Shown here: piece after piece, positions 1,199 through 52,680 of the stretch
Layout: each line of letters opens with the position of its first letter
Numbering within the stretch: position 1 is the first letter of the stretch
Assembly: GCA_009773205.1 (NCBI GenBank)
Contig: WPAE01000008.1
Location: 1-64,000, forward strand
Source: Ignavibacteria bacterium
GTDB lineage: Bacteria; Bacteroidota; Ignavibacteria; Ignavibacteriales; Melioribacteraceae
Direction: 5' to 3'
Length of the DNA: 64,000 bases
The notes under the pieces: generated by a model
Seen by the model: only the letters and a program-made list of their open reading frames with translations
Told to the model about the DNA's origin: nothing
Databases searched by the model: none
Made by a program: the position numbers and the translations under genes

Positions 1199-4100
1199 AT
1201 GCAAAAGCTGATAATACTCTTTCTATTTACATGTACAACAATATTTGCGCAGGCAACAAATGGACTAATTGCATATTATCCTTTCAACGGAAATGCTAAT
1301 GATGAGAGTGGTAATAATTTACACGCTACCTTGATGAACAATCCATCTTTTGTTACTGGAGCAATAGGTCAGGCAGTAAAATTTACCTCTATTGGTGTTA
1401 TGGGTGCTAATGGAAGTCATGTTTTATTACCAGAAGCATTAACAAGTCTTGTTGCTTCTGCAGCAGAGCTAACAATTTCGATGTGGGTTAATGAAGAATC
1501 TATCAAACCATTAGCAGGGGGCGAAGCCTATATATATTTTGGTGATACCAAAGTGTTTACAATTGGGCACGAGGTTGGCGGTTCTGCACCTGCTGGGAGT
1601 ATGATTATTTTTGGAGATGTTACAAAATATTACCCATATGATAATAACAATACTTTAAAATGGGCTCATTATACAGTAACATTTAAGAATAATGTGCTTA
1701 ATTGTTATGTTAACTCTAGTTTGGTAATATCTTCACCATACATAAAAGAAATAAATGGTAGTGCGGCAGCCTTAGGACGGCACTGGTGGGGCGGCGGCGG
1801 CCTTGCATCAAATTTAACGTCAACACGATTTACTGGTTCAATGGATGAGGTAAGGGTTTATAATCGTGCATTAAACAATCAAGAAATAAGTGAGCTCTAT
1901 AACTTATCATCAAATAATATTTATTCACTTAATATCACTGACCAATCTGGCGGCTCAAAAGATTTACAATTTGGACTAGATCCTACAGCAACTGATGGTA
2001 TAGATGCAACTTTAGGCGAGTATGTTGTTCCACCTATGCCGCCAGCAGGAAGTTTTGATACCAGATTTGTTTTACCGGGTAACATTGATAACTCATTAAC
2101 TGATATTCGTAACGGCAGTAATACATCGTTTGTAACAAAAGAACATATCATTCAGTATCAAGTTGGTACTGGTACTAATATAAAACTTTCTTGGAACTTA
2201 CCAGTTGGTGTGTATGGAAGACTTCAAGATAGAGTTTTAGGAACTATAATAGATGTACCAATGTCCGGCTCGGGAGACTATACAGTTGCAAATCCAAGTG
2301 TTGTTTCTTCATTAAAGATGACTATTAATTACATGTTGGGTAGTTTACCAACACCGGTATTAAAATCCCCAGCAAACAACTCCATTGATCAGTTATTAAG
2401 TCCCACATTGATTTGGCATAAATCTCAGTATGCCGATAAATACAAATTGCAAGTTGCCAAGGATGCTAATTTTGCAAATATCGTTTTTGAAGATTCAACC
2501 ATTACAGATACTACAAAACAAATAACCAACTTGGAGGCAGTTACAAAATATTTTTGGAGAGTAAGAGCCAAGAACTCACAAGCTGCAAATCCCATTTCAT
2601 CTTATCCAAGCGTTAATAATTTTACTACTGAGTTAATTGCGCCAAAAAAGCCAACTTTATTGTTCCCAGGCAATAATGCTGTAAATATTCCTCTAAAACC
2701 AAAGTTGCTTTGGTCTAAATCAAAATACGCTTCCGGATACAATATTGAATTCCAGGGTGGTTGGACGGGAAAAAGTGGAACAACCTCAGATACAACAATG
2801 CAGTTTGATTTTTTGAAACCCGGAACACAGCACACATGGAAAATACAAGCATATAATTCAAAGGGAGTGAGTGGATTTACTGATGTATTTTATTTTACAA
2901 CGGCACCAACAGATTGGAATTTATCATTGTTTATTCAAGATAGATTTTTATTGCTTGGACATGCTAATGCTATTAATGCGAACGATCAAATAAATTCAAT
3001 TTATGGTGAAGAAACTCTTCCACCAGTTCCACCAGCGGGAGTTTTAGACGCACGGTTATTACTTCCCGGAGGTGATGCTAGTCTTGGAGATTTTCGTAAT
3101 TCTAGCGAAGAAAAAACAACTTGGATACTATCATTTCAACCTTCATCAACCGGATACCCAATTACTATTAAGTGGGGTTTGCATCCAGCACCGGAAGGAA
3201 CCCTTTACATAAAAGATAGAATTGACGGATCGATTGTAAATATCAATATGAAAACTCAAGATTCTGTAAGAATAACAAATCAAGCTCTAACAAGTCTTCA
3301 AATTGAATACAATAAACAGATTACTGTAAATGCATCCTTAAACAGTGGCTGGAATATGGTCTCTGTGCCTGTAATAGCTGCAAGTTTGAAAGGAACTGAT
3401 TTGTTTTCATCTGCTAACTCGCAAATCTTCGGATTCAACGGCGGCTATACAATTGAAACGAATCTTACACTTGGCAAAGGTTATTGGGTAAGATATGCTG
3501 CTGGAAAAACCGAAGCTATTAAAGGAACTCTGAGCAAAACAAATAGGATAGCCTTAAACTCTGGCTGGAATATGATAGGTGTTTATGATAAAGAAGTTCA
3601 AGTTAATCAAATAGTATCCACACCAGCTAACATTGTTAATTCATCCTATTTTGAATTTAATAACGGATATGTAATTGCTTCATCGCTTAAACCTGGAAAA
3701 GGTTATTGGGCAAGAACGAGCCAAGCCGGCGAATTAACTTTTCCATACACCGTTTCAAAAACGTCAGCACAAATTGCAAATGTAATTGATAAGGATTGGA
3801 GCAGAATAATAATTCAAGATGCTGGTTACAAAACAGCATCTTTATATTTATCTAGGAATAGTGAAGGAAGCAGCAAACTTGATCTTCCACCTGCACCGCC
3901 CGCAGGCATTTTCGATGTTCGCTGGGCAAGTGAAAAATTGGTTGAATCAAGTAATGGTATAAATGAGATTGTATTTAATTATGCCGAATATCCAATTACA
4001 CTCAAGTTTGAGAATTGCGATCTTTGGATAAAAGATAAAATAAACGGGTTGATAATAAATCAGCTTGTTAAAAAGGGTGAATCCTTAACCATAACAAACA

Positions 4101-18081: not shown

Positions 18082-19842
18082 ATGGAATCGTTAGTTAGAA
18101 TCACAATAGTTATGTTTTTTTTCAGCATCTATCTTTTAGCACAGGTACCGGGCAACACAACGCTTACAACCGGAAGCACTTCTATATTAAAAGAAACAAC
18201 CGGTCAAACAACTACGCATAGTTACGGAGTTTACGGAATAGGAATGGAGACAGTAGGAAACACCTCAAAAGTGTATAGAACTTATTTTGATTTTAGCCTT
18301 GAGGCAATACCTACTAATGCAACTATTCAAAGCGTTACTGTTTACATATCTAACGGTAAGAACGGATATACGCAAAAAATAACACAGATAGCCAGTTTAA
18401 ACCAATTTGATTTGAGCAGTTGTTGGACAGCAATCGGTAACGCAAATTCATTACATACTGGTGTAGCTTATAATGCTTCCAGCTTTACATCGGCAGCGAT
18501 AAAAACCGCAATACAGGGAAGTCTCTCCGGCAGAAAGATAATCATCGGTGTATTATCAGAAAGTGAAAGCACAAATGGATCAAACACTTCTGTATCTTTA
18601 AGCTTGTATGTAACATATACACGTCCTTTGGCTACAATAAATTACTCGGTTCGTAATGATATGGATGGTTTTGTTGGTGGAAATATAGGTGTGGGCATTA
18701 ACGCCCCCGCAACTTCACAAGGAAGTCCATATAGTTCAACTGCTACTGAAGGAAATACCATAAATGTTCAAGCTTACGATTATTCGGGAAACTTCTACAG
18801 TGGTTATAGTTATGTCTTTAATGATAACGAAGGTTCTACAAATAAAAGCGAGCTTTACAGTCAAGGTGGAGCAAGTAGGTATTTCAGCTATGGCGATAGC
18901 CCTAGTGGATCGCACACATTTCTGCAAAATGATAGCGGAATTGAATTCGTAGCAAAATTAAGAAAAGTATGTAATTTAAGTTTTTCAAATCCCGGGCGAT
19001 TAATAACCCTCAATGGAACTAATTTTACTTCATCTGCAAGTACTTCTGCCGTTGTTCAAAATACCGTTTCAGCATCAGCAGAACCGTATTTTGTTGTTAA
19101 TTACATCGAACACATGTTCTTAGGCGGCTGGAGAAACAGTGTCGGACAGCTGATTCCTTCAACCATTATTACAGCAACACAACACGATACTTACACACCC
19201 GAGTATCGTATTCAGCCGCTTACACCTAATATATCTTTTGGTACAACTATAGGACTGCCTATTCAAATTAATTGGACTGATAACCCTAATTCTGCTGTAA
19301 CGCAGTACCGCATTCATAGAAGGGTTTATTCCGGAACTTCTTGGGGACCTGATCAAGTAATTGGAACAGTAGGTAGAGGTGTTCTAACATTTACCGATAA
19401 CGACTTTATCTTAAAAACTTGGCGTACAGGTACTTGGTTAGAGTATGGTATAACAGCTTATTATTCTGTTAACAATACATGGTCATCCGGAGGAGCAAAT
19501 ACACAAGTTTATGGCATGCAAACTCTGATACAAAGCAATGAGTCGGCATTATTAACATCAGAAAGCGAAGTTCCAACAGATTATTCAATTAGCAATTATC
19601 CAAATCCATTCAATCCAACAACAACAATCAGCTATCAATTGCCAAAAGATGGGATGGTAACAATAAAGGTTTACGATATTCTTGGTAAAGAAGTTGCAAC
19701 ATTAGTAAACGAGCCTCAGCAATCTGGAACATATAATTCTCAATTCTCAATTCGTAATTCTCAATTATCCAGCGGTGTTTACATAGCAACAATACAAGCA
19801 AATAATTTTGTCAAATCAATTAAGCTGGTACTGGCTAAGTAA
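18082..19842 (+). CDS. Secreted T9SS cargo protein of unknown function
   Basis: The 586-aa protein starts at ATG behind AAAGGAG. It has a signal peptide (about 1-20, ending LLAQVPG). An N-terminal beta-rich domain (about 25-190, with YRTYFDFSLEAIPTNATIQSV) resembles carbohydrate-binding or DNRLRE-like modules, but I cannot name it. An FN3-like domain lies around 385-480 (PIQINWTDNPNSAVTQYRIHR). It ends in a T9SS sorting domain (NYPNPFNPTTTISYQLPKDG). Within that domain the loop before SSGVYIATI is encoded by five tandem heptamers (19735-19769). The gene converges on the CDF transporter gene, with a shared hairpin terminator between them. Confidence 0.83.
   Translation: MESLVRITIVMFFFSIYLLAQVPGNTTLTTGSTSILKETTGQTTTHSYGVYGIGMETVGNTSKVYRTYFDFSLEAIPTNATIQSVTVYISNGKNGYTQKITQIASLNQFDLSSCWTAIGNANSLHTGVAYNASSFTSAAIKTAIQGSLSGRKIIIGVLSESESTNGSNTSVSLSLYVTYTRPLATINYSVRNDMDGFVGGNIGVGINAPATSQGSPYSSTATEGNTINVQAYDYSGNFYSGYSYVFNDNEGSTNKSELYSQGGASRYFSYGDSPSGSHTFLQNDSGIEFVAKLRKVCNLSFSNPGRLITLNGTNFTSSASTSAVVQNTVSASAEPYFVVNYIEHMFLGGWRNSVGQLIPSTIITATQHDTYTPEYRIQPLTPNISFGTTIGLPIQINWTDNPNSAVTQYRIHRRVYSGTSWGPDQVIGTVGRGVLTFTDNDFILKTWRTGTWLEYGITAYYSVNNTWSSGGANTQVYGMQTLIQSNESALLTSESEVPTDYSISNYPNPFNPTTTISYQLPKDGMVTIKVYDILGKEVATLVNEPQQSGTYNSQFSIRNSQLSSGVYIATIQANNFVKSIKLVLAK
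19735..19769 (+). repeat. Five tandem heptamers inside a sorting-domain coding region
   Basis: AATTCTC AATTCTC AATTCGT AATTCTC AATTATC, 35 nt, encodes the NSQFSIRNSQLS loop. The same seven-base phasing occurs in many spacers of the window. Confidence 0.8.
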
Positions 19843-19852
19843 GCAGCTCGGT

Positions 19853-19904
19853 AGGGAATAGTATCCGCCATGAAGCGGCGGACAAGTAAGACCATTCCCT
19901 TTGT
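19853..19904. terminator. Two-level hairpin between convergent genes
   Basis: The outer arms AGGGAAT/ATTCCCT enclose an inner TCCGCC/GGCGGA hairpin, and TTTG follows. It can serve both the T9SS gene and the convergent transporter gene. The inner CGGCGGACAAGT is shared with the element inserted in rpiA. Confidence 0.6.
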
Positions 19905-30399: not shown

Positions 30400-30599
30400 G
30401 AATACTTAATTGAACCCGCTAAATAAGGCGATACCAAATATTTTTTGCCTGCGTTCTTCACTCTTCATGCCTCGACTGCCACAAGGCAAGGCGGGCGTTC
30501 TGCACTCTGAAGCGGCTAAATTAATTTTATTACGTGCTAAAAATATAATATCAACTACTCTTTTCATAGTATAAGAGAGTTTTTATTTCTTCTGCTTTA

Positions 30600-30868
30600 A
30601 TCCGCCAGAGGCGGACGAGGGTCAAATTCCCCGCCTCTTGAGGCGAATAAATAAACCCAAATTTTCCATTAGGCAAACCTGCCTGCGGTAGGCAGGTTTG
30701 CCATACGGGCCGACAAGCATTAAGTCATTTATAGTAAATAACTTATGTAAGATTTTTAATTTATAAAGACAATTAAAATCTTACCATGCTTGTCGGTTTC
30801 TAATGAATTTTTTGGGATAAAATTTGTTTTCAGAAACCTCGCTGTCCCGCCTGCCAAAGCAAAGCGGC
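30600..30868. repeat. 103-bp dispersed repeat, copy interrupted by a MITE
   Basis: The two halves 30600-30655 and 30822-30868 together match 27681-27783 with two mismatches. They are separated by the family A MITE plus one copy of its 5-bp duplication. Confidence 0.9.
30656..30816 (-). mobile_element. MITE-like element, family A, copy 2 (nested)
   Basis: The 161-bp element is in inverse orientation to the other two copies, with CCCAAATTTTCC and GAATTTTTTGGG ends. It is flanked by ATAAA at 30651-30655 and 30817-30821. The uninterrupted host repeat at 27681-27783 has a single ATAAA at the same point, so both boundaries and the duplication are defined. Confidence 0.92.
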
Positions 30869-39940: not shown

Positions 39941-39989
39941 ATAAGCTGTAAGCTATAAGCTGTAAGCTATAAGCAATAAGCTGTAAGCT
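39941..39989. repeat. Seven tandem heptamers
   Basis: ATAAGCT GTAAGCT ATAAGCT GTAAGCT ATAAGCA ATAAGCT GTAAGCT, 49 nt in perfect 7-nt phase. Confidence 0.9.
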
Positions 39990-40110
39990 AAAGAATCGAA
40001 TATGAAAATTTCATTGTGGTTGTTTATTTTATTTACAACTAACTACTAACAACTCAAAACTCAAAAGTGCCTAAGTGCTTACAAGGCATTAGGCAGTAGT
40101 TGGAAAAGTG

Positions 40111-40224
40111 ACTGAGTGGAATAGCTATAAGCTGTAAGCTAAAGAAACTAAGATGTAAATTAAATCCATTGTAGTTTGTTTTGTTCTTTGAAATCTTGCA
40201 ACTAATCACTAACAACCAACAACT
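40111..40224. repeat. 114-bp direct repeat, copy upstream of rpiA
   Basis: It matches 41066-41214 apart from two gaps of 21 and 14 nt and a single mismatch. Both gaps are whole numbers of heptamers. Confidence 0.92.
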
Positions 40225-40336
40225 ATTTTCTTCGCAATGCAGCGAAAATTATTCTTACTTATATTTAGCTATTCTATACAATTAACTTCATTTGACTAAT
40301 AAACCAAAATGGCTCGATTTTTTCTTAGGAATGCGA

Positions 40337-41092
40337 ATGAATCTAAATGACCCCAAAAAAATAGCTGCCGAAAAAGCCGTAGAAGAAATAAAAGATGATA
40401 TGATAGTTGGACTTGGCACCGGTTCAACATTTCATTTTGCACTTCTTAAAATTGCCGAAAGAATACAAAGTGGTGAATTGAAAAACATTAAATGTGTTGC
40501 CAGCTCTAAACAAACCGAATTGAAAGCAGCGGAGTTAGGAATACCGTTAGTCACTTTAAATGAATTGTACAAAAGTGGGCGGCGGACAAGTTCTCAATCC
40601 GCCACAAAAACGGCGGACAAGTTCTCAATTGATCTTACTATTGATGGTGCTGACGAATTAGATAAGGATCTTAATCTTATTAAAGGCGGCGGCGGTGCGT
40701 TGTTGCGCGAGAAAGTAATCGTTCAAGCAAGTAAAAAATTTATTGTTGTTGTTGATGAATCTAAATTATCTAAAAAACTTGGAATGAATTTTCCTGTTCC
40801 TGTTGAAGTACTTCAATTTGCCGTTGAAGCAGAAAAAAGTTTTTTGGAATCTCTTGGCGCTAATGTGAGCATAAGAAAGAATAGTGATGGAGAACATTTT
40901 ATAACTGATGAAGGTAACTTTATATTAGATGCAAAGATTAATGCAATTGAAAATGTTGATGAGTTTGCATCTATATTAGAGCAACGCGCTGGAATTGTTG
41001 AACATGGTTTGTTTAGAAGCTGTTTGGTAAGTAAAGTAGTTTGTTCTTTTAGTGATGGTAGTGTTACTGAGTGGAATAGCTATAAGCTGTAA
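40337..41092 (+). CDS. rpiA: Ribose-5-phosphate isomerase A with repeat insertion
   Basis: The protein is about 251 aa from the ATG at 40337 (AGGA 6 nt upstream). A TTG at 40292 in the same frame has no ribosome site. Family blocks are DDMIVGLGTGSTFHFAL, IKCVASSKQT, DLTIDGADELDKDLNLIKGGGGALLREK and VVDESKLSKKLG, with the catalytic Asp-x2-Glu and Lys region present. It interconverts ribose 5-phosphate and ribulose 5-phosphate in the pentose phosphate pathway. Between TLNEL and IDLTIDGADE, where other RpiA proteins run almost directly, about 19 extra residues (YKSGRRTSSQSATKTADKF) are encoded by a GGCGGACAAGTT-type repeat. The last codons (TEWNSYKL) and the stop come from the downstream 149-bp repeat. 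So both an interior loop and the C terminus are repeat-derived. Confidence 0.88.
   Translation: MNLNDPKKIAAEKAVEEIKDDMIVGLGTGSTFHFALLKIAERIQSGELKNIKCVASSKQTELKAAELGIPLVTLNELYKSGRRTSSQSATKTADKFSIDLTIDGADELDKDLNLIKGGGGALLREKVIVQASKKFIVVVDESKLSKKLGMNFPVPVEVLQFAVEAEKSFLESLGANVSIRKNSDGEHFITDEGNFILDAKINAIENVDEFASILEQRAGIVEHGLFRSCLVSKVVCSFSDGSVTEWNSYKL
40573..40630 (+). repeat. In-frame palindromic/direct repeat inserted in rpiA
   Basis: CGGCGGACAAGTTCTCAAT occurs at 40580-40598 and again at 40611-40629. The first copy forms a GGCGGA/TCCGCC hairpin. A related CGGCGGACAAGT lies in the terminator-like hairpin at 19853-19904. Confidence 0.8.
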
Positions 41093-41214
41093 GCTATAAG
41101 CTATAAGCTGTAAGCTAAAGAAACGAAGATGTAAATTAAATCCATTGTAGTTTGTTTTGTTCTTTGAAATCTTGCAACTAATCACTAACAACCAACAACT
41201 AACAACCAACAACT
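41066..41214. repeat. 149-bp direct repeat, copy overlapping the rpiA 3' end
   Basis: This is the expanded copy of 40111-40224: three extra AGCT heptamers (21 nt) and two extra AACAACC/AACAACT heptamers (14 nt). It supplies the rpiA stop codon. Confidence 0.92.
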
Positions 41215-52595: not shown

Positions 52596-52680
52596 CGCCC
52601 GCCTTGCCTTGCGCCAGACGAGGCAGGAAGAACTTGCCCGCCTAAGGCGGGTGAAAACGAAGAGTGAAGAGTGTAGAAAA
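52596..52680. repeat. GC-rich dispersed repeat
   Basis: It contains CCGCCTTGCCTTGCG and CCCGCCTAAGGCGGG hairpins. The part AAGAACTTGCCCGCCTAAGG onward recurs in inverse orientation at 56747-56796. Confidence 0.8.

Follow-up and report, generated by a model that had tools for sequence, protein, structure and literature searches.

A loop of RpiA probably refilled time and again with genomic repeats in an Ignavibacteria bacterium and its relatives

The window, by which we mean the whole stretch of 64,000 nucleotides analysed here, carries an intact rpiA gene (Table 1) and belongs to a genome assembled in 476 contigs (G000; other G numbers denote genomes of relatives and L numbers sampled loci). 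The rpiA product matches the Pfam family Rib_5-P_isom_A (1.8e-54) and scores 227 bits against TIGR00021 (cut-off 126.4) and 232 bits against NCBIfam NF001924 (cut-off 192), an equivalog model that it passes despite the insert described below. By these curated cut-offs the product is RpiA, with a predicted role as the enzyme, and residues D103, D106, K116 and E125, which we take to be the catalytic Asp, Asp, Lys and Glu, are invariant in a three-row alignment. From an alignment that was likewise thin (three rows), AlphaFold2 returned the RpiA fold with a mean pLDDT of 73.5 and a pTM of 0.63. Residues 82-94, between a helix (74-80) and a strand (98-104), fall below a pLDDT of 50, and the model thus predicts, with a low confidence of the kind seen in disordered loops, an extended loop that joins the active-site strand at its N-terminal end. 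In folds of the RpiA type, the catalytic face is located at the opposite end of the strand from the entry of the loop. A preliminary description of this DNA, which stressed that the repeat lies next to the active-site strand, hence overstated the risk to the enzyme. A direct repeat is also found on both sides of rpiA (40100-40235 and 41063-41201, with a weaker third copy at 39972-40061), and the final eight codons of the gene (TEWNSYKL) together with the stop codon come from its second copy. The idea that this flanking repeat represents the dispersed element of the loop described below was rejected, as its matches are confined to these places genome-wide.

Table 1. Features of the window that are discussed in the text.
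Feature	Position	Strand	Remarks
rpiA, ribose-5-phosphate isomerase A	40337..41092	+	frame intact, 251 aa + stop; listed ORF begins upstream at TTG 40292
Extended loop LYKSGRRTSSQSATKTADKFS, 21 residues, 63 nt	40565..40627	+	about 3 residues in short-loop relatives; AlphaFold2 pLDDT < 50 at 82-94
Partial second copy of composite repeat (19-mer CGGCGGACAAGTTCTCAAT)	40580..40598	+	again at 40611-40629
Full 40-nt composite repeat: heptamer, TCCGCC arm, spacer, GGCGGA arm, heptamer	40591..40630	+
Inverted arms TCCGCC/GGCGGA, 6 bp, 8-nt loop	40598..40617	+	fold z -0.50
Heptamer array AATTCTC x4.6	19735..19766	+	in frame in T9SS sorting-domain loop of ORF 18082-19839
TCCGCC/GGCGGA element with CGGCGGACAAGT	19864..19887	+	just 3' of ORF 18082-19839

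Compared with the roughly three residues in the 45 short-loop relatives that were read, the loop of the window's RpiA is about 18 residues longer, close to the approximately 19 extra residues reported in the preliminary description. Its DNA is a composite repeat built from the heptamer TTCTCAA and the arms TCCGCC/GGCGGA, and the 40-nt segment agrees at 38 of 40 positions with a consensus that was written by hand from the copies in the genome. With the 19-mer present exactly twice, the arms in place and the frame open, the proposed repeat insertion in rpiA proved to be real. As a single strand, the hairpin is of ordinary stability (58 of 200 shuffles fold equally well), and with its 6-bp arms and a z of -0.50 the insert falls short of the strong palindrome that characterizes a Rickettsia palindromic element (RPE). 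Read from the sequence, the arms are adjoined by neither GTAG nor CGTC; they are preceded by CTCAA and followed by CAAGT.

The same DNA is present elsewhere in the genome. CGGCGGACAAGT recurs at 19876-19887, in agreement with the claim that the repeat also occurs in a spacer hairpin near 19853-19904, and with up to one mismatch it has four matches against 0.04 expected, a number that none of 100 shuffles attained. Allowing one mismatch, CGGCGGACAAGTTCT is found at 12 places in the genome, two of which are the rpiA copies (reversed control: 0), and at least three of the 12 (L008, L010 and L012) are without the remainder of the composite element. Independently of the hand-written consensus, a BLAST search of the rpiA insert against the whole of G000 returned 36-38 nt at 89% identity twice on contig C132 and once on C327. 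The extra residues are thus encoded in frame by a dispersed repeat, as the term protein-coding repeat had implied, and the element has both in-frame coding and non-coding copies in spacers. Related in-frame copies in other G000 proteins occur in a T9SS domain (L003), in the linker of a dihydrolipoamide acyltransferase E2 (L056, 934-2577) and in L004. In the E2 protein, the related element is read from the opposite strand and separates the lipoyl domain, which extends to residue 182, from the E3-binding domain, which starts at 248. The L004 protein (1266-2720, minus strand), a glycosyltransferase of the BFO_1060 family, has about 40 repeat-like residues beyond the end of its domain at residue 370.

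Among the 79 family genomes searched, 59 have an RpiA match and 20 have none, eight of the latter being among the 56 genomes that are at least 90% complete. The loop was readable in 56 family genomes, with G006 and G095 (fragments) and G071 left out; in G071, the close rpiA copy is truncated and lacks the loop, and a second, distant RpiA has a 13-nt match gap that implies a short loop. A long loop of 10-72 residues is present in 17 of these 56 genomes, as opposed to about three residues in the other 39 and in all six RpiA sequences read from outside the family. The long-loop genomes represent six genera (G000, G001 and G004; G011, G091 and G092; G013; G068; G021; G070 and G074-G080), and the long loop is hence not peculiar to this one genome. 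The preliminary description had reasoned that a loop of the same length in all close relatives would make the insertion an old family feature. This turned out to be true in part, since both other same-genus genomes with an RpiA match, as well as five other genera, have an extended loop, whereas its lengths and contents differ from those in the window.

On a tree calculated without the loop, the long state requires at least three changes and is clustered, a pattern compatible with a single origin. From our point of view, the long loop is probably an old feature of the clade, while its filling probably is not. No match of at least 30 bits exists between the loops of the close relatives G078 and G079 (84% identical elsewhere) or G077 and G080 (85%), and the contents of the 17 long loops are mostly unrelated to one another. 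Clear common pieces were seen only among G074, G075 and G078, apart from a heptamer match of 17 nt that links G004 with G070. Since G074 and G078 have a 90-nt piece in common (82% identical) and both have an array in common with G075, some of the inserts are not independent.

Repeat-type DNA, namely heptamer arrays, palindromes or own-genome copies, was recognized in 12 of the 17 long loops (11 of 16 besides G000). The remaining five (G001, G011, G021, G091 and G092), of which G092 alone went into the whole-genome search, hold no recognisable repeat. In that search, 13 of the 17 inserts were joined as one BLAST query against their 13 genomes, and at least 10 of them have a further copy in their own genome (G000, G004, G068, G070 and G074-G079), with at least 27 rows for G004, 12 for G068 and 11 for G075. 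The matches include 50 nt at 92% in G079, 49 nt at 90% in G004 and 35 nt at 94% in G068; those of G076 are rich in A and T and could represent simple sequence. For G013, G080 and G092, no such copy was among the matches listed, and in G013 a related copy lies 408 nt downstream of rpiA. Heptamer arrays of at least 3.5 copies occur in nine of the 17 long-loop rpiA genes, always inside the insert to within 3 nt, and in none of 46 other rpiA sequences; elsewhere, seven were found in about 1.3 Mb of sampled ORFs, including two in loops of T9SS sorting domains, which is a contrast and not a census, the rpiA loci having been purposely chosen. Palindromic pieces are present in the inserts of G000, G068 and G079. 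An origin of the inserts from the spacers adjoining rpiA was discarded, with a clear flank copy (up to 1.5 kb per side) in only three of the 17 genomes (G013, G068 and G074).

One could imagine that nothing but local expansion took place, i.e., that an old variable loop grew and drifted as its own short repeats slipped and that its likeness to repeats elsewhere in the genome reflects a shared sequence bias instead of copying. The arrays in nine loops, the clustering of the long loop on the tree and the five loops without visible repeats would fit such a scenario, as would the observation that 12-mers of the inserts are not clearly commoner than those of the rpiA body, in samples of 29-183 kb (about 1-5% of 14 genomes) that give little power. 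However, the matches of the G000 insert at three other places and the long own-genome matches of G079, G004 and G068 speak against it, and slippage leaves the palindromic pieces of three inserts unexplained, so we regard local expansion alone as unlikely.

A second scenario is that a host RAYT (Y1 transposase) mobilizes the element as a REP, in line with the mobile palindrome of the preliminary description. Y1_Tnp genes are present in 24 of 30 genomes, with three matches in G000, and some inserts contain short palindromes; further, on contig C242 of G000 a different palindrome, TGGCGGACACTGTCTGCCA, which contains GGCGGACA, is found some 500 nt away from the Y1_Tnp gene, and in G068 there are matches of the insert at about 1.9 kb from one such gene. 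On the other hand, the 16 kb examined around the three Y1_Tnp genes in G000 contain no insert match of at least 34 bits, which is a weak test, as a 184-kb sample of G000 also yielded none. The neighbourhood search covered part of the Y1_Tnp genes in 11 genomes, and in eight of the ten others no insert match was found near the examined genes, the exceptions being G068 and G076 (AT-rich). In addition, long loops also occur in G011 and G091, where no Y1_Tnp gene was matched, GTAG and CGTC are absent beside the arms, the hairpin is weak, and the far side of the Y1_Tnp gene on C242 carries other palindromes, by eye of the CCCACG/CGTGGG type. With no convincing link to a transposase, if by a weak test, and an unremarkable hairpin, the word mobile seems unwarranted, and transposition by a RAYT appears quite improbable to us. 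Several of the CCCACG/CGTGGG and similar palindromes were noticed by eye at about 3700-4100 of L213, beside the Y1_Tnp gene on C242, and they are probably REPs of that neighbouring transposase.

All 17 long loops are free of in-frame stops and have a length that is a multiple of three, although stops are frequent in their other forward frames. Outside the loop, dN/dS amounts to 0.06-0.15 (seven pairs; dS is saturated for G000-G001), and this part of rpiA is under purifying selection. We infer that the loop is translated and tolerated. It could alternatively be bypassed or spliced out, comparable to the palindromic elements of yeast mitochondria that are subject to translational bypassing according to excerpts of one study (PMC6649704), and this would account for a conserved enzyme with widely differing inserts. 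Because every loop is open in frame and other forward frames often are not, we consider an untranslated insert very improbable. Given 476 contigs and a repetitive stretch, one might also think of an artefact of assembly or sequencing. The probability of this is close to negligible, since 16 other assemblies have long loops, 11 of repeat type including one in a single-contig assembly, and the frame is kept in all of them; long repeat-type loops are also found in the assemblies of G013 (one contig), G080 (5) and G079 (8). The idea that the repeats are pre-adapted as stop-free sequence was rejected, as 32 of 49 non-coding heptamer arrays are open on at least one strand and shuffling gives a mean of 32.0. 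Nine of 11 rpiA arrays are open on one strand only, which is the coding strand in seven and not in two (G013 and one of those in G080), and of the other two, one has no stop on either strand and that of G076 has stops on both.

RpiA had been regarded as an essential enzyme. An RpiB-family gene is, however, present in 28 of 30 genomes tested, including that of the window, so RpiA is probably redundant and non-essential here; the 20 family genomes without an RpiA match point in the same direction. RpiB was not found in G074 and G092, both incomplete, and the matches in G019 and G076 are weak or partial. Three near-complete relatives (G005, G073 and G086) have RpiB and no RpiA match, and their gene content suggests that RpiA was lost repeatedly.

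Within this one genome, the loop of the T9SS sorting domain behaves likewise and represents a second hotspot. G000 has 87 family matches to these domains, and 51 distinct loops could be parsed from the sampled loci, of which 21 have the usual 10 residues and 30 have 11-33. Nine loops hold translations of the TTCTCAA heptamer of the NSQFS/NSRFS type, with or without the palindromic middle, and others hold a second element that is also present in the window's spacers at 30468-30496 and 52597-52626; for two more element types, no copy was seen in the spacers of the sampled DNA. Loops with translated repeats were noted, besides that in the window (19735-19766), in L003, L050, L273, L284, L286, L288 and L290. 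As the sorting domains are paralogues, gene duplication or conversion may account for some of the common filler.

What has to be brought together are the observed identity of the repeats, the stop-free in-frame state of the loops, the recurrence at the same site and the conservation of the remaining gene. In our judgement, the explanation that most likely holds is that of an old permissive surface loop of RpiA that is repeatedly refilled with the genome's own repeats, which are kept in frame. The loop would have lengthened early in a group of related genera, and repeats of the surrounding genome would then enter it. Selection on the enzyme would purge those that disrupt the frame or introduce stops, and the surviving copies would later be replaced, such that species differ in filler. 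In G000 and G077, the end of the repeat passes directly into the native ATTGAT codons, and we favour, over dedicated transposition, an entry by copying or template switching at short homologies, together with slippage of heptamer units.

Parts of this picture have precedents. Excerpts of two studies describe RPEs as in-frame palindromic repeats in many proteins, with enzyme activity reportedly kept (PMC6649704; PMC3733652). The rpiA element has in common with them in-frame palindromic repeats with coding and non-coding copies, but, set beside these descriptions, differs in its short arms and heptamer arrays and in that a single loop is filled, from species to species, with repeats that mostly bear no relation to each other; the CGTC end described for RPEs in an excerpt of PMC3733652 is absent beside the rpiA arms. 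The same excerpt reports intragenic REPs (GTAG/CGTC) within ORFs and, in recB of two Xanthomonas species, different REPs at approximately the same site. Unlike these, the rpiA arms carry no such tetranucleotide tag and have no convincing RAYT link, and the rpiA loop is long in 17 genomes from six genera and holds other kinds of repeat besides REPs. Heptameric tandem repeats such as GGGAATC in Xanthomonas are, in the part of PMC4692102 available to us, dispersed and over-represented in non-coding DNA, whereas the rpiA units stand in frame in the middle of a gene, where the same text has short repeats suppressed. The inverted repeats within coding genes of Nematomorpha mitochondria are long and perfect as excerpted from PMC6649704, in contrast to the 6-bp arms in rpiA. 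In the open-licence literature, the phenomenon was not found for Ignavibacteria, RpiA or T9SS domains among the matches listed. Already known, in Rickettsia and other bacteria, are hence in-frame REP/RPE repeats with one same-site case, the Xanthomonas recB gene; new appears to be the variant in an RpiA loop across six genera.

The in-protein repeats described for bacteria in the studies cited here are mostly scattered, whereas here one loop of central metabolism appears to be refilled time and again in six genera. Such loops offer replicated natural experiments that can show which protein loops take up new sequence, at what rate it is exchanged and in what way non-coding repeats turn into protein, and repeat-filled loops can mislead protein alignments and annotation. 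One could further speculate, although we hold it to be distinctly unlikely, that the loops of RpiA and of the T9SS sorting domain are permanent gateways by which non-coding repeats are made into new protein sequence, and that rpiA may phase-vary with RpiB as a backup, since adding or losing one of the 7-nt units arrayed in nine of the 17 long loops shifts the frame.

Three minor observations concern related sequences. Another abundant palindrome, TCCGCC(AGA)GGCGGA with a conserved CGAGGGTCAAATTCCCCGCCTC-like tail, occurs in the window at 30601-30615 and in L043-L057, and nine of the ten copies shown lie outside any ORF longer than 90 aa. The CGTCATGCTGAGC family was found at five places by a pattern search that misses some observed variants and is not a census. 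Lastly, the rpiA gene of G088 (L090) has the usual short loop and about 47 extra repeat-like residues elsewhere, between DGADE and KGGGG.
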